Shown here one piece after another: positions 1 through 42,059 of a stretch of 64,000 nucleotides of DNA. Origin of the DNA: Clostridiales bacterium (GTDB lineage: Bacteria; Bacillota; Clostridia; Christensenellales; Aristaeellaceae). Within the stretch, counting starts at the first letter, position 1, and each line of letters starts with the position of its first letter. The notes under the pieces were generated by a model. It did not search any database. It was not told the DNA's origin and was given only the letters and a program-made list of their open reading frames with translations. Location: NCBI GenBank assembly GCA_012729115.1, contig JAAYDR010000014.1:1-64000 (forward strand), read 5' to 3'. The position numbers and the translations under genes were made by a program.

Positions 1-88
1 CCTTCTCATGTCCTATGAGAAAGCTTATAGACAACCATTCATGGTGGTTGGTAGACACGTCCGACCAGATCTCGGACCTATATAAGCT
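1..88 (-). promoter_or_regulatory. Purine riboswitch (guanine/xanthine type) with expression-platform hairpin
   Basis: Read on the minus strand, 88 down to 22 folds as a purine aptamer: an 8-bp P1 (AGCTTATA with TATAAGCT), P2 capped by loop GATCTGG, junction TGTCTACC, P3 capped by loop CCATGAA, and a pyrimidine C in the P3/P1 junction at the place of specificity nucleotide C74, which predicts guanine-type rather than adenine recognition. The loop GG and CC pairs that kiss are kept. Just downstream, TTCTCAT and ATGAGAA form a 7-bp hairpin that reaches the window edge, probably the terminator stem. The controlled gene therefore lies left of the window on the minus strand, divergent from the purine-degradation genes. 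The junction residues next to C50 and C74 differ from the common guanine class, so the ligand could be another oxidised purine. Confidence 0.85.
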
Positions 89-261
89 GCAATATACAAT
101 TACCCCTTGACCGATTTTACCTTAGCACAGAATGGACGGAATGTCAAGGTGGAATTCGTTGCAGGGACTATCTTTCAAAGGGAAGTCGGCCTGCCTTGCC
201 ATAATCCCATGGTCAATATTCCTCAAGTATGGTAGAGTTAAAAATCGGGAGGGAAGGCATC

Positions 262-931: not shown

Positions 932-1098
932 GCGAAAAACCCTGGTTTGCCTTACAACCAAATGACGACAATGGCTGCAAGGAAGTGCTTTGCGCACGGG
1001 CTATTCCCTCAGATGGGCACCGTGAAAAGAATTGTCTCATCTAGGAACCGCTCATTTGGACAGAATGACAATGTCCACATGGGCGGTTTTTCGTCTTT
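932..1098 (+). promoter_or_regulatory. Structured 5' leader with intrinsic terminator; candidate riboswitch
   Basis: The leader has several nested helices. TGGTT (943-947) pairs with AACCA (956-960). ATGA plus GACAAT (962-972, one bulged C) pairs with ATTGTC plus TCAT (1031-1040). Inside that helix, GTGC (985-988) can pair with GCAC (994-997), or CACGG with CCGTG (up to 1024); these two are mutually exclusive. It ends in an intrinsic terminator: AACCGC (1046-1051) with GCGGTT (1083-1088), inner stem TGGACA with TGTCCA, then a T-rich run to 1098. The terminator lies before the ssnA ribosome binding site, so readthrough must be controlled. I do not recognise the fold as a known class. Its position suggests a purine, molybdenum-cofactor or related ligand, which is inference. 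Confidence 0.6.
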
Positions 1099-11999: not shown

Positions 12000-12932
12000 T
12001 TACCCGCGGATCACGGTTCCGGTCCTGCCCTGGATGCCGTCACTGGCTTTTTCCAGCAAAGTGATCAGGGCGTACCGTCCCGGGGCGCTCTGGGCGAAGT
12101 CCAGGGCGGCCTGCACCTTGGGGAGCATGGAGCCGGGAGCAAAGTGCCCCTCCTGGATATAGCGCTGGGCGTCCTCTGGGCTGATTTCATCCAGCCATTG
12201 CTGATCGGGCTTGCCAAAGCGGATGGCCACCTTTTCCACGGCAGTGAGGATGATGAGGCAGTCCGCGTCCAGCATCTGGGCCATGCGGCTGCTGGCGAAG
12301 TCCTTGTCGATGACCGCGCCCACACCCTTTAGGTGATGGCCTTCTGCGATCACGGGGATGCCGCCGCCGCCCGCCGCGATGACGATCTGACCGGCATTCA
12401 GCAGGTCCTTGACGGTTTCGATTTCAATGATCTCCACAGGCTTGGGGGATGCCACCACCCGGCGGTAGCCCCTGCCCGCGTCCTCCATGACGGTGTAACC
12501 CTTCTCCCGGGCCAGCTCCTCCGCCTCTTCCCGGGTCATGAAGGGGCCGATGGGTTTGGTGGGCTTGGCAAAGGCCGGATCCTGCGGGTCCACGCGAACC
12601 TGGGTCAATACCGTGGAAACGGGTTTTGGAATACCCCGCTCCAGCAGTTCCTCCCGCAGGGCGTTCTGGAGGTCATAGCCGATATAGCCCTGGCTCATGG
12701 CCACGCAGACGGACAGGGGGGCCATGGGCTCCCCGTGGGTCCGGCTGAACTCGGCCATGGCGTTTTGGATCATGCCCACCTGAGGGCCGTTGCCATGGGA
12801 AATGATCACCTGATGGCCCTGCTGCACCAAGTCCGCGATGGTCTTTGCGGTCTTCTTTACCGCCACCATCTGCTCGGGCAGGTTGTTGCCCAGGGCGTTG
12901 CCCCCCAGAGCAATGACGATTTTCTTGCCCAT
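12000..12932 (-). CDS. arcC: Carbamate kinase
   Basis: A 310-residue amino-acid-kinase-fold enzyme that transfers phosphate from carbamoyl phosphate to ADP. The N-terminus KIVIALGGNALG, the SHGNGPQVG segment and the C-terminal AAGGGGIPV and FASS(R)MAQ motifs are typical, and the length is normal. It is the last gene of the dpaL-ygeY-ygeW-arcC series and equals yqeA of the E. coli locus. With YgeW it would harvest ATP from carbamoyl groups released during purine breakdown, a major energy gain for a fermenter. The bidirectional terminator at 11944 follows. Confidence 0.95.
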   Translation of the reverse strand: MGKKIVIALGGNALGNNLPEQMVAVKKTAKTIADLVQQGHQVIISHGNGPQVGMIQNAMAEFSRTHGEPMAPLSVCVAMSQGYIGYDLQNALREELLERGIPKPVSTVLTQVRVDPQDPAFAKPTKPIGPFMTREEAEELAREKGYTVMEDAGRGYRRVVASPKPVEIIEIETVKDLLNAGQIVIAAGGGGIPVIAEGHHLKGVGAVIDKDFASSRMAQMLDADCLIILTAVEKVAIRFGKPDQQWLDEISPEDAQRYIQEGHFAPGSMLPKVQAALDFAQSAPGRYALITLLEKASDGIQGRTGTVIRG

Positions 12933-12969
12933 ATTGTTTCCGCCTTTGCCGGTTGATGTTTGAATGGGA

Positions 12970-35041: not shown

Positions 35042-36406
35042 TTACCCCATATCTATCCAGTCGAAACCGTTATCCCGGGCCGCCTGGGCATACCAGTGCC
35101 CGCTCTGCTTTACAATCCTCTCCTGGGTGGCAAAGTCGATATACACCAGGCCAAAGCGGCTGCTGTAGCCAAAGCTCCATTCAAAATTGTCACAGAAGGA
35201 CCATTGCATGTACCCTGTTACATTCACACCGGCCTGGATGGCCCGGTGCAACTGGTGCAGGTGCCTGCGCAGATAGTCCACCCGCTGGGGATCCTCCACC
35301 CGATTGTCTGCACTGCGCACATCGTTGATGGCGGTGCCGTTTTCCGTGATGACAATCTTCCGGATGCCGTATTCCTGCTTCATCCTGAGCAGCATATGAT
35401 AGAGCCCCTCTTCGGTGATGGGCCAGCCACGGTCATTCACCGGCATCAAGCGGGGAGTCGCTGAACTGAACCCAAGAGGCCACACCTGTGAATCATGCCT
35501 GACAAAACTGTCATTGTAATAATTAAGCCCCATAAAATCCAGAGGCTGGGCCATGAGTGCCATTTCATCCGGATCAAAGGGAGGCATCACCACACCCATG
35601 CTTTGATACCAGTCCACCATGTCCTGGGGATAGGTCCCCCGGATCAGAGGGTCCAGGAACCAGCGGTTGATGTAGCCATCCGCCCGCCTGGCCGCGGCTG
35701 CGTCCTCCGGCTCATCAGACAGGGGCACACGACCCATCAGGTTCAGGGCAATGCCGATTTCCCCCTTCATACCGCTTTGCCGGAAATATCGCACCACCAG
35801 CCCATGGGCCACGTACAGGTGGTAGGCCACGCGCAGCGCCGTTGAAAAATCCCGGATGCCCGGAGCCTGCCGCCCTTCATAGTTGCCCAAAAACGCCGCG
35901 CAGAAGGGCTCGTTGAGGGTGATCCAGTGCCTGACCCGGTCCCCCAGGCGCTCCATCACCTTATGGCAATAAGTCAGGAAATACTGGGGCATCTGAGGGT
36001 TGGCCCATCCACCGATGTCCTGCATGGCCTGGGGCAAATCCCAGTGGTACAGCGTTACATAGGGAGTGATCCCTGCCTTTAGCAATTCATCCACCAACCG
36101 GGAATAAAACTCCAGCCCCGCTTCATTTACCTGCCCGCGGGCGTCCGGATAAATGCGGGGCCAGGCGATGGAAAAGCGGTAGCCCTTCATCCCCATCTGC
36201 CGCATCAGCGATATGTCTTCCCTGAAACGGTGATAATGGTCGCAGGCCACATCCCCCGTATCCCCATTGGCCACATTTCCCGGAATAGTACAGAAGCGAT
36301 CCCAAATCGATTCTCCGCGCCCATCCTCCCGGGCAGCCCCCTCCACCTGATAGGACGCCGTAGCAGTACCCCATACAAAATCCTGAGGGAAAAGCAGCTT
36401 GCTCAT
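35042..36406 (-). CDS. Glycoside hydrolase family 1, beta-glucosidase type
   Basis: A 454-residue GH1 enzyme of normal length. The N-terminal FVWGTATASYQVEGA signature, acid/base Glu in ITLNEPF and nucleophile Glu in VITENGT are intact; WSFCDNFEWSFGYSSRFGL is the aglycone/glycone wall. Lack of phosphate-binding motifs favours a plain beta-glucosidase/galactosidase over 6-phospho-beta-glucosidase. The start at 36406 follows AGGAGGCAAAAGG. It lies 59 nt downstream of the membrane-protein/peptidase fusion with no terminator seen, so it may share that c-di-GMP-controlled transcript. Confidence 0.93.
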   Translation of the reverse strand: MSKLLFPQDFVWGTATASYQVEGAAREDGRGESIWDRFCTIPGNVANGDTGDVACDHYHRFREDISLMRQMGMKGYRFSIAWPRIYPDARGQVNEAGLEFYSRLVDELLKAGITPYVTLYHWDLPQAMQDIGGWANPQMPQYFLTYCHKVMERLGDRVRHWITLNEPFCAAFLGNYEGRQAPGIRDFSTALRVAYHLYVAHGLVVRYFRQSGMKGEIGIALNLMGRVPLSDEPEDAAAARRADGYINRWFLDPLIRGTYPQDMVDWYQSMGVVMPPFDPDEMALMAQPLDFMGLNYYNDSFVRHDSQVWPLGFSSATPRLMPVNDRGWPITEEGLYHMLLRMKQEYGIRKIVITENGTAINDVRSADNRVEDPQRVDYLRRHLHQLHRAIQAGVNVTGYMQWSFCDNFEWSFGYSSRFGLVYIDFATQERIVKQSGHWYAQAARDNGFDWIDMG

Positions 36407-36465: not shown

Positions 36466-37935
36466 TCATCGCCGCTGTTTCAGCGCCAGCCCTTTGAAGA
36501 ATTTGCGGATTTGACCCGAGTAAAAAATCAGGATCGTCGGAACAATCAGAAACAGCATGCGGCCCAGCACCGTGTTGGCGAAAAGGATGATAACCCCCAG
36601 GTAACGGTTGACACCCACCAGCCGGCCATACACACTGCTGGCCTGAAAGGTGATCTTCATCACGTCCGGTATGGCATCGGGGGGATAGTAATCGATATCG
36701 CCGTCAATCATCTGGTAACCAAATTCCTCATCGGTATACAGGGACATTGCTCGCCGCACCTGCACCGCCCCCACCTTGTCCTTGAAGAGGACGATATCCC
36801 CCTGGGAGAGCGCCACATGCTCATCAATCTTTTCGAAGAAGGCAATGTCGTTGAAGTGTATGGTGGGCTCCATGGTGGATGACTGGAAAATGTAGGGGAA
36901 GTAGCCCATGATGGCCGTCTCCTTGGTTGGCGAGGCGTAATTGAACGCCAGCAGGAGCACGTTGATGAGCAGCATACCGGTGACCACAGCAACCAGCAGA
37001 CCTGTGGCAATAAAGGACAGGGCGGTGCTGCGCTGTTTTGGCAGGGCGGCCTTCTCCATCCGCCGGACGGCTGCAAGGATCTTACGGTCTTTTCTCGCCG
37101 TATGGAGGGTGAGTCTTACCCCCTCGCCCCACTTAGCTTCAGGCACAGGGATGCCGGAATCGTAAGGCGGATTGAAACGCTTTGCAATGTCCATCGCCCG
37201 CACAATGCAGTAGATGAGACTGACAGCGCAGAAGACAAGCAACCCAATCGCGTAGAGACTTCCGCCCGAGGGAAGCAGCAGGTTGGACAGCGACTGCATT
37301 TTGCTGCGGTCGCTGATGATCTGGAAATAGCCTGTGGGCAGCTGTAAAAGGCCTGCCGCCAGCGAAAACGCGCCGATGGCGTACTTCGCGTTTGTCACAT
37401 CGCGGATGGACAGGGAAACGGTTAACGTAATGCTCAGCAGCATGGCCAAATTCATGGCTCCCTGCAGGAACTGACTGATCAGATAGGGCAGCACAAAGGG
37501 TGCCTTTAAAAAGGAGGTGAGACCAATGGTTACCACAAATCCGATGGCATATACCAGCAGCACATACGCCAGCTGTGCCAGCAGCTTGGCGATCACCATG
37601 ATTCCCACCGGGTATTTCATATGCACCAGGGCATACCAGCTGTTGTCATAGACCTCCGCATAGGAGACATTCTGATACCGCACAATGAAATAGGCTGTCA
37701 TGGACAGATAGGACAAGCCCAGATAAATGAAGATCGTGGAAAAATTGCTGGTTTCAATTATGTAGGGAACCTTTTCGGACAGAACGGATTCCCTGAGGGT
37801 TTGCAGCACAAAAAACAGCGCAAATGCCATCATGCCCTGAAAGACGCCCAGCGCCACCAGGGTACGCATGCCATTTGGATTTTCGTAATATGCGTAGCTC
37901 CATTCCTTGCGAAAGAGTCCCGCTTTATACAGCAA
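36466..37935 (-). CDS. ABC-2-like membrane protein fused to a degenerate signal-peptidase-I-like domain
   Basis: A 489-residue protein. Residues 1-~250 hold six to seven hydrophobic segments in an ABC-2/ABC-transporter-permease-like layout (cytoplasmic N-terminus, long segments at ~28-46, 68-86, 110-145, 160-200, 230-250). After a basic cytoplasmic linker (~255-300) come a membrane segment and an S26-like domain (~345-450) with SSTMEPTIHFNDIAFF, LSQGDIVLFKD and GRLVGVNRYLG, which parallel the SipW boxes, then a final membrane segment. The residue just before Met in the S-M-x-P box is Thr, not the catalytic Ser, and the place of the SipW His (THRI) reads VRRA, so the domain looks catalytically dead. 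The start is TTG at 37935 with AAGGAGG nine bases upstream, overlapping the ATPase-like gene by 11 bp. I know of no described protein of this architecture. Confidence 0.75.
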   Translation of the reverse strand: MLYKAGLFRKEWSYAYYENPNGMRTLVALGVFQGMMAFALFFVLQTLRESVLSEKVPYIIETSNFSTIFIYLGLSYLSMTAYFIVRYQNVSYAEVYDNSWYALVHMKYPVGIMVIAKLLAQLAYVLLVYAIGFVVTIGLTSFLKAPFVLPYLISQFLQGAMNLAMLLSITLTVSLSIRDVTNAKYAIGAFSLAAGLLQLPTGYFQIISDRSKMQSLSNLLLPSGGSLYAIGLLVFCAVSLIYCIVRAMDIAKRFNPPYDSGIPVPEAKWGEGVRLTLHTARKDRKILAAVRRMEKAALPKQRSTALSFIATGLLVAVVTGMLLINVLLLAFNYASPTKETAIMGYFPYIFQSSTMEPTIHFNDIAFFEKIDEHVALSQGDIVLFKDKVGAVQVRRAMSLYTDEEFGYQMIDGDIDYYPPDAIPDVMKITFQASSVYGRLVGVNRYLGVIILFANTVLGRMLFLIVPTILIFYSGQIRKFFKGLALKQRR

Positions 37936-38920
37936 GGCGGTTCGCCTCCTTCAGCGCTTCAGTCAAAGAGGGCCGGGCCACGCGGAAATCCCCAAAGAGG
38001 ACACCCGCATCTTCCAGCACGTTCAGTACACGGGAGGGCGGGGGCGCCTGCTGTTTGTCTCCATACACAGACAGCCTGTCCTCTTCTGTCTCCAGGTGCA
38101 ATCCGGGGAAGGATTGCTGAAGCGCAGTACCGGCAGCCTTCATATCCTCCGTGCGCAGCACATACAGGCGGTGGTCCAGGGTGTTGCAAAGTTCGCCCAC
38201 AGACCCGGTGTTAAGCGGCTGAACCCGTCCGTTCACCAACAGGGCCGCATGGGTGGCGCAACGTTGTGCAAGGGTACCGGAGGTGGTGGAAAAAATGATC
38301 GTCTTCCCGGCATTTTCGCTCAGGTGGCGGAAAAGAGATGCAAAGCTTGCCTCCAAGGGCTCCGGAACATGGATGTGGGTCAGATCCACCAGAATCAGCG
38401 GCACTTTGATGTCCAGCGTCAGTAGCAGAAGCAGCAAAACCCGCTCGGCAGGGGAAAGGTTGCGGATATAGGTGAAGCAGAGCCTCTCCAGCCCAAATTG
38501 CAGCAAGCGGTCCAGCCAGAGGAGCTGGCGTTTGATGGGGTCCTTCACGATATGCCGGGAAGCGAGCATCAGCCACGAGATGCCCTGGACATGATGATAA
38601 AGAAGTTTCTGGTTGTTGGTATAATACACATGCTCCAAAATACGCCGTTTATCACGCATCATGCCCAGCCCCATCAGCGAGCAGCGTCCCGATTCATAGG
38701 GCCTGATATTGCCGATGATTTCCGTGAGCAATTGCAAATCGATTGCATCGTGACCCAAAAGAGCAAATCGCTGTGCCGCGGAAACAGTGAAAGAAACGCC
38801 ATCCAGCGCACGGCGGAGAATGGCTCCATCCTGCCGCTGGTAGCATTCCACGCTTGTGACATCTTCCAGCAGTGCAATGCGGGAAAAATCGATGGCAACC
38901 CCTTTGGGCAATCTCTGCAT
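37925..38920 (-). CDS. Degenerate ABC-transporter ATPase-like protein
   Basis: A 331-residue protein with the outline of an ABC nucleotide-binding domain but without its catalytic residues. The Walker A position reads ALLGHDAIDLQLL and lacks GK[ST]; the signature region reads YIRNLSPAERVLLLLLL in place of LSGGQ; Walker B reads LILVDLTH, keeping the Asp but losing the catalytic Glu; and the H-loop reads IIFSTTSG without His. ATP hydrolysis is therefore unlikely. The C-terminal ~100 residues form an accessory domain. It begins right after the sipW stop and overlaps the next gene, so it is probably the cytoplasmic partner of the membrane fusion protein. Low identity to canonical ABC proteins makes the family call inferential. 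Confidence 0.7.
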   Translation of the reverse strand: MQRLPKGVAIDFSRIALLEDVTSVECYQRQDGAILRRALDGVSFTVSAAQRFALLGHDAIDLQLLTEIIGNIRPYESGRCSLMGLGMMRDKRRILEHVYYTNNQKLLYHHVQGISWLMLASRHIVKDPIKRQLLWLDRLLQFGLERLCFTYIRNLSPAERVLLLLLLTLDIKVPLILVDLTHIHVPEPLEASFASLFRHLSENAGKTIIFSTTSGTLAQRCATHAALLVNGRVQPLNTGSVGELCNTLDHRLYVLRTEDMKAAGTALQQSFPGLHLETEEDRLSVYGDKQQAPPPSRVLNVLEDAGVLFGDFRVARPSLTEALKEANRLAV

Positions 38921-39505
38921 TTAGTCGGTCCCCCAAACGGTTGGCATTTTAATCATGAACTGAAAGGTGCCAATCACCCGGTCAGGCGTCAGCAGCTCGC
39001 CATCCGGATCATTGATGGGATTGTCGCCCTTGGTGCGGTATTGCACGCCCCCGTCCGGATCCACCATGGTTTCGATGATCCGGTGGGTCACCACCATGCC
39101 GCTGTGAAAGCGGAAGGTCACAATGGTTCCCACGGGAATCGCGTCCGGGTTCTCCGGTGTTTTTGCGATGATGATACTGCCAATGGGCAGCGTCGGCACC
39201 ATGGAACCGGTTTCCACCCGAAACAGACTGTAGCCAAAAACAGAAGGAATGCCGCCATCGCGTTTTGTTTGCCAGGCGGTGTACATGATGGCCATCAGCG
39301 ACAGCGCCAGCAGCCAGAAGATGATGCCAAAACCAATGCGGGTAATTTTCTGCACAGGAGAAAGCGGCGCTTTTTCTTTGCGCAGAGCCCGCTTTACACC
39401 GCCTGCCGCCTGATAGGCCAGGGTCTGCTCCCGAAGGGCAATCACCCGCTCATGGTCCTCCCCGGCAGGGGATTCATTCATCCAGGATTGATCACGGTTC
39501 CTCAA
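38921..39505 (-). CDS. sipW: SipW-type signal peptidase I
   Basis: A 194-residue serine peptidase of the archaeal/ER-like SipW branch. After ~50 cytoplasmic residues comes a membrane segment (GFGIIFWLLALSLMAIMY), then box B with catalytic Ser in VETGSMVPT, the general-base His in VVTHRI (His instead of the bacterial Lys) and TKGDNPINDPD. All catalytic boxes are present, so it should be active. It would process the three upstream precursors, whose signals carry the SipW-type TSGxxAxY cleavage region. The start is TTG at 39505 (site AAGGGAGAG), overlapping the preceding gene by 14 bp; ATG at 39481 is a weaker alternative. Confidence 0.9.
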   Translation of the reverse strand: MRNRDQSWMNESPAGEDHERVIALREQTLAYQAAGGVKRALRKEKAPLSPVQKITRIGFGIIFWLLALSLMAIMYTAWQTKRDGGIPSVFGYSLFRVETGSMVPTLPIGSIIIAKTPENPDAIPVGTIVTFRFHSGMVVTHRIIETMVDPDGGVQYRTKGDNPINDPDGELLTPDRVIGTFQFMIKMPTVWGTD

Positions 39506-40595
39506 CAGGACTCTCCCTTTCTTCCACTTTCTCCCGGGGAGCCTCCGTGGGGGCAGGAGCGCGCGTGGGCGCAGGAGTAGGCGCCGGAGCAGGTGCCGCT
39601 GTGGGGGCTGGGGTGAGCGCCTGAGTTGGCGTCGGAGCAGGCGTGTCTGTAAGCACCGGCTTGGAGGGTGCCATCATCGCGGGTTTGGGCGCTTCCGTGG
39701 GGGCAGGGGCTTGTGTGGGAGCGGGTGTAGCCGTGGGAGCAGGTGTAGGCGCCTCTGTGGGGGCAGGTGTGCTGGGGGGGGCGGCAGTAGCTGCTTCCGT
39801 GGGAGCAGGTGTGTCGGTGGTGGTTGGGGTAGGCGAGTCTGTGGTGAGCGGGGCCAGCAGGGGCGCTCCCACCGGTTTCGAGGCCGGGGCAGCCGCCAGG
39901 AACTTCTGCCGCAGGTCTTCAATCACCTGCCACGCATCGCCGGCCGCCTTCCGCGCAGCGGCAAGATGGGCCTGGGCGGCAGCTATCCTGGCGTCTTCCG
40001 TATCCGCCTGGGCTTTGGCACTCAGCGCGAAAGTTTTGAGCTTGTTGAGGTGGCCCGTTGCATCATCCGTCTGCTTACACATGGAATACTCATATTCGGC
40101 CGTCTGCCATCCGTTTACATACTGGTCGGTGCTCCATATGTAGATCGCGCCGGCAATCTGGGCAATGGCGGCGTTTGCGCTGACAGCGCTTCTGTGCAAT
40201 GCGTCGATTTGATTGCTTGCCTGCTGCACCCAGGATCGCTGTTCCTCGTTTGCGGCCATGGACCAATAGGGTTGCAATGCCTGCCAGGCGGCGTTGGTGC
40301 CCTGACTGCCGTTCTCGTACGGGTCGGCCAGACGGTCCAATTCATCCGCCAATGCGTCATCTTCCGTAGCCCGCCGCAAAGCGTCCCGCGCCACCTGAAT
40401 CCAATAGTCTGAGGTTCCCTCCGGACTCGGGGTGGCGCTGGGGCTGGGGCTGGGAGACAGGCTGGGCTCCGGGATCAGCAGGGAGACGCTTCCCTTCAGT
40501 GTGATTTTCTCGTAATAGGCAGCGATGGCGCCCGATGTAAGCAGCACGGCCGCCATGGCCACTGCCAGCAGGGCGTTTGTCAGTTTCTTCTTCAT
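39492..40595 (-). CDS. Exported Pro/Thr-rich protein with SipW-type signal
   Basis: A 367-residue exported protein. The signal (KKKLTNALLAVAMAAVLLTSGAIAAYYE) ends in the same LTSGxxAxY motif as its neighbours. Residues ~60-245 are helical and Ala/Gln-rich (ARDALRRATEDDALADELDRL; AIAQIAGAIYIW). Residues ~250-350 are a low-complexity PAPTEAPTPAPT-type stalk, and the C-terminus is charged (REKVEERESPVEEP). No LPxTG motif is present, so it is not sortase-anchored. It may be a tip, base or wall-spanning component of the fibre. Its ATG overlaps the stop of the preceding gene (ATGA). It matches no family I can name. Confidence 0.8.
   Translation of the reverse strand: MKKKLTNALLAVAMAAVLLTSGAIAAYYEKITLKGSVSLLIPEPSLSPSPSPSATPSPEGTSDYWIQVARDALRRATEDDALADELDRLADPYENGSQGTNAAWQALQPYWSMAANEEQRSWVQQASNQIDALHRSAVSANAAIAQIAGAIYIWSTDQYVNGWQTAEYEYSMCKQTDDATGHLNKLKTFALSAKAQADTEDARIAAAQAHLAAARKAAGDAWQVIEDLRQKFLAAAPASKPVGAPLLAPLTTDSPTPTTTDTPAPTEAATAAPPSTPAPTEAPTPAPTATPAPTQAPAPTEAPKPAMMAPSKPVLTDTPAPTPTQALTPAPTAAPAPAPTPAPTRAPAPTEAPREKVEERESPVEEP
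39530..39830 (-). repeat. Degenerate tandem repeat encoding the Pro/Thr/Ala stalk
   Basis: Imperfect units of about 12-36 bp related to GTGGGGGCAGGTGT (plus-strand reading) encode the PAPT/EAPT repeats. Such runs expand and contract by slippage, so stalk length is likely variable between strains. Confidence 0.75.
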
Positions 40596-41101
40596 GACCT
40601 GCCTGCCTGTTCTGCCTCAACAGAGACGTCGTATGACATGCTGAAGTCCTTGTATGCGCTTAAATCCGCTCCACTTGCTTCTTCCCAGGAAACGGATACG
40701 GTCATCGTGACGATTTTTTCCTGGGCATTTTGCATGGTTGAAACGGCTTTCAGCGTACTGCTGCCCGTTGCGGCCACATCATCCAGCCGGATGCGAAGCC
40801 CGGGCGGCAAAGTGCCCGAAGGGGTGGCGGTCAGTGTGACAGTGAGCGTTGTGGGTGTCTTGCAGCGGGAGGTGTCAATCTTGATCTCCCGGGTGCGGGT
40901 TTCGCTGGGGGCCAGGCTGATTCCCGGCAGAGTCTGCGTCTGGGACGGAGAATCATTGACCCGCAATTCAAATGAAGCGGTGGATAGCCAAGCAGTCAGG
41001 GATGTACTCTGAGAATACATCGCCATGGTGCCCGATGTCAGAAGGATGACCGCGCCGATGAGCAGGAGCGCCAAGTAGAAAAATTTCTTATCATACTTCA
41101 C
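40592..41101 (-). CDS. TasA/camelysin-like exported protein with SipW-type signal
   Basis: About 169 residues. The signal peptide is long and ends in ILLTSGTMAMYSQS, the hallmark of SipW substrates. The mature part is beta-rich with a run of hydrophobic-alternating strands and a CK-TPTTLTVTLTATPSGTLPPG segment, like a small TasA-type subunit or minor pilin. Start choice: GTG at 41101 has AAGGAGG eight bases upstream; the frame also opens at a GTG at 41110, which touches that site. It is separated from the first subunit gene by a strong hairpin and overlaps the next gene by 4 bp. Confidence 0.8.
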   Translation of the reverse strand: MKYDKKFFYLALLLIGAVILLTSGTMAMYSQSTSLTAWLSTASFELRVNDSPSQTQTLPGISLAPSETRTREIKIDTSRCKTPTTLTVTLTATPSGTLPPGLRIRLDDVAATGSSTLKAVSTMQNAQEKIVTMTVSVSWEEASGADLSAYKDFSMSYDVSVEAEQAGRS

Positions 41102-41142
41102 AGACCCCACCTCCTTGTGGCTTGATAATATGAAAGATACGA

Positions 41143-41170
41143 CAGGGCAAAGACGTAAGTCTTTGCCCTG
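41143..41170 (-). terminator. Intercistronic hairpin (partial terminator or 3'-end stabiliser)
   Basis: CAGGGCAAAGAC and GTCTTTGCCCTG form a perfect 12-bp stem with a 4-nt loop between the first and second genes of the fibre operon. The downstream tail is only moderately T-rich, so it probably attenuates rather than stops transcription, raising first-gene product over the rest. Confidence 0.7.
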
Positions 41171-41213
41171 CGTTTGCCGTCTTACCTAGCACTGCCTGAA
41201 TCATCAGGTGTGA

Positions 41214-41702
41214 TTAATTCTGAGTTGCATTAACCCTGACGGTCAGATTGAGGGGTTGACCCGCTTGAGCTGTCGTTTGTACCTCATCCTTATCCCAGTC
41301 AATGGTGATTACAACCGTCTGACTACCCTTTTGACCAAGTGTGGCCTTAGCCAGTCCGCTCTCCACAACTTGATTCTCACTATCATTACCATCTTCAAAA
41401 GTTAAGTCTATTTTCATACCCTTAAACTTATCGAGATTTGTAATGGAAGGAGCAACAGCTATGTCGGATTTAACCTCAGAGGCGTTCGTCACCTTCACTT
41501 TATATGTTGCTTTTTCACCCGGAGCAATGTCGATAACTTTATCAAAGCTACCATCCACATCAGTGGCAGTGACCATGAACTCTTTTGTGGTGAAGTCGTC
41601 TGTAAACGTTGCAACATCTTGCGTGTAGGCGGCCATGGTACCAGCAATCAGGGAAGTCATCAGAGCGAGGAGCAGAGCGGCGACGAGAAGGAACCTTTTC
41701 AT
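41214..41702 (-). CDS. TasA/camelysin-like probable major fibre subunit with SipW-type signal
   Basis: A 162-residue exported protein. The signal peptide ends in SLIAGTMAAYTQD, and the mature start (AYTQDVATFTDDFTTKEF) matches the TasA pattern of an aromatic residue near the cleavage site followed by an ATF-type strand. The rest is a single beta-sandwich-like domain (DIAPGEKATYKVKVTN; SQTVVITIDW). It is first in the operon, directly behind the riboswitches, has the best ribosome binding site (TAGGAGGG) and is followed by a hairpin, all consistent with being the most abundant product. TasA forms biofilm fibres in Bacillus; function here is by analogy. Its codons are less GC-rich than neighbouring genes. 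Confidence 0.82.
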   Translation of the reverse strand: MKRFLLVAALLLALMTSLIAGTMAAYTQDVATFTDDFTTKEFMVTATDVDGSFDKVIDIAPGEKATYKVKVTNASEVKSDIAVAPSITNLDKFKGMKIDLTFEDGNDSENQVVESGLAKATLGQKGSQTVVITIDWDKDEVQTTAQAGQPLNLTVRVNATQN

Positions 41703-41832
41703 TAACAGAACCCTCCTATAAAATTTCGAGAAACTTACTCATGCAAATCTGGTTGCACACGTCCTGGAAACTTCTTTCCAAGGCACGTTTCCAAGGTGTG
41801 CTTCCAGGCTGATGCACAACGAGATCTGTTTA

Positions 41833-41916
41833 GATGACGGCTGGCTGTCATGCGCCGAAGCGTTTAGACCCTGTAGCTTTGTGTCCCGGCTTTTCAACCG
41901 GTTTACCATGAGCATC
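41833..41916 (-). promoter_or_regulatory. Cyclic di-GMP-I (GEMM) riboswitch, second of a tandem pair
   Basis: On the minus strand the aptamer reads GGTAAACCGG, a GAAA-type loop, GGGACACAAAGCTACAGGG, TCTAAACG (tetraloop receptor side) and ATGACAGCCAGCCGTCA. GATG/CATC closes P1. The G preceding TAAACC matches the position (G20) that selects c-di-GMP over the cGAMP variant. It lies 130 nt before the first fibre gene. Confidence 0.9.
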
Positions 41917-41920
41917 TTAT

Positions 41921-42004
41921 AGACGGCAACTGGCTGCCATGCGGTGTGCGTTTAGGCCCTTTAGCTTTGCGTCCCTACCTTTCGATAAGTTTGCGATTGA
42001 CACC
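41921..42004 (-). promoter_or_regulatory. Cyclic di-GMP-I (GEMM) riboswitch, first of a tandem pair
   Basis: On the minus strand: ATCGCAAACTTATCGAAAGG, then GGGACGCAAAGCTAAAGGG, CCTAAACGC and ATGGCAGCCAGTTGCCG. This is nearly the textbook consensus, including the GAAA tetraloop and its receptor and the G of GCAAAC that contacts c-di-GMP. It starts about 20 nt after the predicted transcription start. Confidence 0.95.
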
Positions 42005-42030
42005 ATGAACAAGTTTCCTTCTCAGCACGC

Positions 42031-42059
42031 ATCGTAGCATGCATAGTATATTATGTCAA
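42031..42059 (-). promoter_or_regulatory. Promoter of the riboswitch-controlled fibre operon
   Basis: Minus-strand TTGACA (42059-42054) and TACGAT (42036-42031) with 17-bp spacing, and TGC giving an extended -10. The leader it produces is ~320 nt and holds both aptamers. Confidence 0.75.

Follow-up and report, generated by a model that had tools for sequence, protein, structure and literature searches.

In Bacillus subtilis, fibre subunits are exported in a SipW-dependent manner from the tapA-sipW-tasA locus, which is under SinR control; outside Bacillus, the assembly of SipW-dependent fibres at the membrane is, to our knowledge, little understood. The stretch of DNA analysed here (64,000 nt from a Clostridiales bacterium, contig JAAYDR010000014.1, positions 1 to 64,000; the window) carries a locus that appears to share this route of export. 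All of its elements lie on the minus strand, from 42059 to 36466: a promoter-like site, two aptamers for cyclic di-GMP (c-di-GMP) and six genes, namely three for exported proteins, sipW, one for a relative of ATP-binding cassette (ABC) type 2 ATPases without the usual nucleotide-site residues (the pseudo-ABC protein), and one for a fusion of a multi-helix membrane part with a SipW-like (S26) signal-peptidase domain. We know of neither a pseudo-ABC gene nor a fusion gene in tapA-sipW-tasA. The locus is real and conserved across families, and can be regarded as a variant of the SipW/TasA-type loci; its membrane module may represent a new assembly platform.

The sipW-bsaABCRSD operon of Clostridium perfringens, as described in the accessible part of the published account, resembles the window locus in its dedicated SipW, its exported matrix subunit, which polymerises (as is predicted for the window), its further exported proteins and its terminator, which is predicted to follow the main subunit gene and to allow read-through (PMC7395162). 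It differs in being under two-component control; the same part of the account names no ABC-like gene (the term ABC does not appear in the main text), no permease-S26 fusion and no riboswitch for the operon (PMC7395162). For the fused domain, the closest tested precedent found for the role of an inactive peptidase would be, by analogy, SipA of Streptococcus pyogenes: according to the accessible text, pili do not polymerise without this protein, which has no catalytic residues but retains the cleft for peptides (PMC4049620). A signal-peptidase fold, the loss of catalytic residues and a link to fibre building (predicted in our case) are common to both, but SipA is related to peptidases of the Ser-Lys rather than the SipW type, has no permease fusion and serves pili built by sortase (PMC4049620, same text). 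The original prediction, made from the letters of the window, knew of no earlier case of the degenerate membrane module and its fusion; among the matches listed from the open-access literature, no title or abstract opening described a SipW locus with the pseudo-ABC and fusion pair.

Full-length fusions were sought at family, order, class and phylum level, using the fusion and its alignments. Eleven loci were found: that of the window, two in the same family (genomes G058 and G085), L013, five of the class, and two of the phylum outside the class. Ten of them fall in seven families (f1, f38, f52, f54, f57, f113, and f120), while L013 was not placed in a family. An 80-residue fragment at a contig end in G102 is not among the 11; nor, from the order, class and phylum searches, are profile matches that covered the SipW-like part alone. 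A scan of genome contigs with the single protein gave nothing, and with an alignment gave three loci, two of which matched G085 and G058 and were not recounted; viral contigs gave 41 pattern matches and no confirmed relative of the fusion, and plasmids none.

At all 11 loci, sipW, the pseudo-ABC gene and the fusion gene follow each other in that order on one strand. The check set beforehand for the proposal of a single system was whether the fusion and the ATPase-like gene keep company with sipW in other genomes: both stand beside it at every locus, and no full-length fusion was found apart from it. As far as the searched genomes allow a judgement, the proposal passes this check. Genes for exported proteins with SipW-type signals (judged by eye) are near the trio at 10 of 10 assessable loci, preceding it in seven (the window, L013, L062, L063, L064, L092, and L093) and following it in three (L010, L065, and L066); L009 could not be assessed, since its sequence stops 406 bases past the fusion. 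In L092 some 4.4 kb, containing genes on the opposite strand, separates these genes from sipW. L013 nearly mirrors the window: two aptamers in tandem are followed by genes for two small exported proteins and a third, Pro/Thr-rich one, and then by the trio. Pairwise identities correlate at 0.96 between the pseudo-ABC and fusion proteins, and at 0.79-0.81 between SipW and either of the two, which is what joint inheritance of the genes should give.

The pseudo-ABC protein (331 residues; 37925..38920, minus strand) was first described as ATPase-like but without nucleotide motifs, and the absence of catalytic residues holds across the whole set: the Walker A Lys, the signature Gly, the Walker B Glu and the H-loop His are missing where they would align in every one of the 11 proteins, and the Walker B Asp is left in two (the window and L013). 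In their place are other conserved residues. The Walker A stretch now reads [GS]-x-x-x-[FYIL]-[ED]-x-[KQE]-L, while K-x-x-I-L-x-H-[VI]-[FY] stands where the Q-loop would be, again in all 11, which argues for constraint rather than decay. Among six intact ABC relatives from four of the carrier genomes, the Walker A pattern was recovered in six and the Walker B pattern in five; the simple LSGG pattern matched none of the six, making it a poor test for the signature. Occurrences of LSGG in the L009 and L010 proteins fall outside the aligned signature position and were not counted.

By profile homology, the pseudo-ABC protein appears to descend from the ABC ATPase superfamily. The window protein matches NCBIfam ABC models weakly and, with E allowed up to 1, no Pfam family; Pfam ABC_tran was reached by one of nine pseudo-ABC proteins, at E 0.045. 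Profile A9 matches structure 1vpl at E 1.2e-16, and there are matches to the GldA, CcmA and DrrA models, with similarity over the full length; the nucleotide-binding and hydrolysis residues of these proteins are absent from the pseudo-ABC protein. A search of ten carrier genomes with the pseudo-ABC profile gave one match at E 3e-54 or better, at the locus, the next being at 1.2e-21. The best Foldseek matches of the modelled protein (ABCA proteins, MetN, PmtCD, a Thermotoga ABC ATPase, and NosDFY) agree with ABC descent, but the template modelling (TM) scores, normalised to the query, do not exceed about 0.25.

Such full-length similarity to ABC-2-type ATPases, together with a permease-like membrane half in the fusion, raises the possibility that the trio is a functional exporter, moving a small ligand, lipid or peptide by means of an unusual partner or source of energy, perhaps an intact ATPase encoded elsewhere. 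Intact ABC ATPase genes, recognised by eye, do occur near the module in L062 (5289-6137, plus strand) and L093 (14274-15077, minus strand). These, however, adjoin what appear to be transporter genes of their own, outside the cassette, and with the nucleotide-site residues gone from every pseudo-ABC protein we consider an exporter very unlikely.

The fusion gene (36466-37935, minus strand) encodes an N-terminal multi-helix part (37000..37935, an approximate limit) and a C-terminal SipW-like domain (36466..36999) that has one membrane segment before it and another after it. The SipW model NF046067 matches the latter over residues 315-484 at E 3e-11, below its cut-off; all nine members searched match the SipW model, and SEC11C matches weakly (E 0.012). 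In the window, the fused domain has Thr at the nucleophile position and Arg at that of the catalytic His. Across the 11 loci the His is never kept, and the nucleophile position holds Thr in nine and Ser in two. The description of this protein as an ABC-2-like permease joined to a dead S26 domain is thus supported for the His loss and less so for the permease: the membrane half matches no Pfam family in the window protein and none of the NCBIfam permease models in nine members, and its ABC-2-like character is suggested by its helix pattern and its gene pairing.

The separate SipW of the module (38921..39505, minus strand; boxes TGSM, VTHR, and KGDN) is intact, scoring 70.2 bits against TIGR02228 (cut-off 51.85) and 80.7 bits against the Bacillus model NF046067, below the latter's cut-off of 190. 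Its catalytic Ser, His and Asp boxes are kept at all 11 loci. What it lacks is a C-terminal membrane segment: the window protein stops 32 residues past KGDN, the range over the 11 loci being 24 to 32, and such a segment was called in none of the 11 module proteins vs. seven of eight controls, by hydropathy windows rather than a trained predictor and on sequences that are related and hence not independent. The controls come from 30 loci kept from a TIGR02228 search, in which 12 proteins at 11 loci passed a motif filter; four of these were cassette members. The segment is also present in 19 of 22 proteins retrieved by similarity to the fused domain, a biased set that includes repeats and one cassette SipW. 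It is common among SipW relatives, including the B. subtilis SipW, rather than an established trait defining the family. The pattern, a correlation across related sequences, fits a pairing in which the active module SipW is made complete by its inactive partner, the fusion.

The shortened SipW also fits a second interpretation, dependence on a partner that controls it. Pseudoenzymes often regulate their active relatives, and the module might act in quality control or sensing, rather than in building the fibre: it would bind precursors before cleavage or signal peptides after their release, and would regulate SipW or send the cell a signal, which the cytoplasmic ABC-like face could relay. No recurrent signalling gene, however, was seen beside the trio in the loci read, and this explanation seems unlikely to us. 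As a separate observation, SipW-type matches also occur within open frames of about 380-720 residues (stop to stop) in L110 (703-1932, plus strand) and others of the class; these are possibly other SipW fusions.

The three exported proteins are each judged by eye to have a SipW-type signal. Protein 1 (162 residues; 41214..41702, minus strand) is BsaA/TasA-like, with sub-threshold matches to TIGR04090 (E 1.1e-7; 31.8 bits against a cut-off of 60) and PF12389 (15.8 bits against 22.5). Protein 2 (172 residues; 40592..41110, minus strand) and protein 3 (367 residues; 39492..40595, minus strand) have no match to SipW-export families at E up to 1; the latter has a Pro/Thr-rich tail, also recognised by eye, and similar Pro/Thr-rich proteins occur in L013 and L010. 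Among ten further exported proteins, one from L013 alone matched TIGR04090 and TIGR04088, both below cut-off, and PF12389 matched three of 15 exported proteins at E up to 1, the best at 0.0048. The label "TasA-type" given to the locus is accordingly one of size and signal, in which the exported proteins resemble BsaA/TasA subunits; it falls short of the curated cut-offs for TasA, camelysin and BsaA. By analogy with those subunits, the exported proteins may form fibres. Cellulose-binding CBM_2 domains were found above cut-off on exported proteins of four loci (L063, L064, L092, and L093), suggesting attachment to plant polysaccharide or cellulose at these, and in none of the three exported proteins of the window. 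Protein 2 also has a pyrE match (25.9 bits against a cut-off of 106.8, E 7e-6) that is probably spurious, and the exported-gene series of L010 ends in a gene (12304-12942, plus strand) for a 212-residue protein with no Pfam match.

Upstream of gene 1 are two c-di-GMP-I aptamers in tandem on the minus strand, aptamer 1 at 41922..42005 (64.7 bits) and aptamer 2 at 41833..41917 (63.3 bits), both well above the RF01051 gathering score of 35. Several such aptamers in one leader are described for Bc3-5 of Bacillus thuringiensis, in the part of that account available, with three there vs. two in the window (PMC4759541). No further RF01051 match was found in the 3.15 Mb genome, with 150 of 315 first-look candidates scored; the genome has nine GGDEF matches over cut-off. 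Two loci, L009 and L062, run into contig ends and could not be assessed for riboswitches. Five of the remaining nine have an aptamer: the window and L013 with two each, and L010, L063 and L093 with one. Control by c-di-GMP-I is therefore common rather than defining, and the proposal of c-di-GMP control, probable for the window, is weaker as a general statement about the module.

The direction of control may be suggested by other leaders. In L063 and L093 the aptamer is followed by a terminator whose 5′ arm includes the aptamer's 3′ end (pairing judged by eye), so that ligand binding should favour transcription. In L013, a leader stretch complementary to the ribosome-binding site suggests translational control. 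Two other features were noted around the loci: a short GGDEF open frame with a partial domain in L092 (11622-11954, minus strand), 300 bases upstream of the exported genes, and a TwoAYGGAY RNA motif in L065 (12023-12180, plus strand), between two exported-protein genes.

The components proposed for the locus (two riboswitches, three exported proteins, an intact SipW, an ATPase-like protein and a permease-pseudopeptidase fusion) were all found where they had been placed; their arrangement as one overlapping series under one promoter needs qualifying on both counts. Overlap or direct abutment is confined to genes 2 to 6 (40592-40595, 39492-39505, 38920/38921, and 37925-37935), gene 1 being separated from gene 2 by 103 nt. 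A promoter-like site lies at 42031..42059 (minus strand; 10 of 12 positions matched), reading TTGACA-17-TACGAT and having a TG ahead of its second hexamer, but six such sites were observed against 3.9 expected in the 6.2 kb scanned, so that by itself it is weak evidence. The leader from aptamer 2 to gene 1 (41703..41832, minus strand) has AGGAGGG ahead of the start codon. On the 3′ side of gene 1 there is a terminator-like hairpin (41142..41171, minus strand) of 13 pairs, with -25.3 kcal/mol for a 40-base stretch and a tail without an unbroken T run; 11 terminator-like sites were found in the scanned region, against 6.1 expected. This hairpin may be an attenuator, in which case a single promoter may mean partial read-through to the later genes. 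Hairpins with T-rich tails below -16 kcal/mol, placed after an exported gene or before sipW, were found in seven of eight loci scanned (the window, L013, L062, L063, L064, L092, and L093, with none in L010), a count that has no shuffle baseline.

Downstream of the fusion gene is a gene for a glycoside hydrolase family 1 (GH1) beta-glucosidase (35042..36406, minus strand; likely start at 36406), with its own ribosome-binding site as judged by eye. It may share a transcript with the locus, but is probably not part of the system, and was dropped as a member since it is absent behind the fusion in L013. GH1 proteins of ten congeners are just 42-47% identical, so that an empty site could not be defined. 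At the start of the window are a purine riboswitch (8-105, minus strand) and an ssnA RNA (965-1012, plus strand).

Taken together, these features suggest a locus for a surface fibre or adhesive matrix with its own SipW, probably under c-di-GMP control, in which the trio forms one membrane complex serving as a non-catalytic platform; we judge the chances of this reading to be about even. Subunits would be exported and then cut by the dedicated SipW, and in the lineage of the window c-di-GMP would probably raise their expression through the two tandem riboswitches. SipW, the pseudo-ABC protein and the fusion would act as a single complex, with the pseudo-ABC protein on the cytoplasmic face of the ABC-2-like part, in the position of an ATPase but without an ATP cycle. 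The fused SipW-like domain would lie outside, beside the active SipW; having kept a peptide-binding fold and lost the catalytic His, it could hold, orient or hand over subunits or signal peptides during cleavage and fibre growth. A second membrane segment, missing from the module SipW, may likewise come from the fusion. The complex of pseudo-ABC protein and fusion would keep SipW and the fibre subunits together and guide growth or anchoring, and the hairpin after gene 1 could lead to many subunits and little machinery, comparably to the terminator and read-through of the C. perfringens operon.

Several observations weigh against this reading. The structure models of the fusion and the pseudo-ABC protein are poor (mean predicted local distance difference test, or pLDDT, scores of 46.8 and 57.7, from four-sequence alignments), and with confidence so low no fold is claimed from them. 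No scanned exported protein rises above cut-off for the TasA/camelysin or BsaA models, and an exported-protein profile matched no solved structure up to E 5. The riboswitch is absent from four of the nine assessable loci, with no aptamer in L064, L065 and L066 when the E limit was relaxed to 5 and none at gathering score in L092. Nor is it reserved for the locus where c-di-GMP-I matches were counted genome-wide: the locus has both of the two in the window's genome, one of two in G058 and one of five in G706 (the other one and the other four lying elsewhere), while all three in G650 and the single one in G683 are away from it. G905 has two elsewhere, and G085, G102 and G886 have none in the genome. 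In L063, furthermore, the lowest-energy fold has the terminator alongside the aptamer hairpins.

The loss of activity in the fused domain can also be questioned. A hydroxyl residue is present at the nucleophile position in all 11 proteins, leaving unusual activity possible, and in 10 of them an Asp lies close to where the later box is expected; the domain might then be a second active peptidase, with the Thr or Ser as nucleophile and some residue besides His as the base. The His position, however, is occupied by Glu in five proteins, Arg in two, Ala in two and Gly in two, and with such varied residues no common catalytic base is visible. We regard a second active peptidase as quite unlikely.

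Finally, the module is rare. The full-length fusion was found in three of 308 genomes in the family (plus the one fragment), one of 347 in the order, six of 341 in the class and three of 348 in the phylum, counts that include the window's own genome. It was not found in the 16 other genomes of the genus, and in the order of G706 it was found in G706 itself and in none of the other five genomes. The module is sporadic and accessory. This distribution is what might be expected of passenger or decaying genes, the relict of a transporter left by chance beside a SipW operon, but such relicts would hardly retain intact frames of similar length, a fixed order and conserved replacement motifs at the 20-66% identity seen across families, and we think this explanation extremely improbable. 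A single system thus remains the better interpretation of the locus, as the original prediction had it, with general c-di-GMP control and the TasA and ABC-2 labels now held less firmly.

A more specific form of the platform reading can be put forward tentatively, and we consider it somewhat doubtful: an ABC-2-like scaffold, with an ABC subunit dead for nucleotides and an outward-facing pseudo-peptidase domain that completes a truncated SipW as its inactive counterpart, would couple signal-peptide cleavage to subunit polymerisation, switched by c-di-GMP in several lineages and directed towards attachment to polysaccharide. If the platform reading is true, this would be a type of fibre assembly without earlier description, suggesting a role for inactive transporter and peptidase folds as platforms for building. 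The module would tie c-di-GMP to surface fibres in relatives of the clostridia, and the presence of two apparent pseudoenzymes in a conserved module provides named genes that are open to deletion and test.

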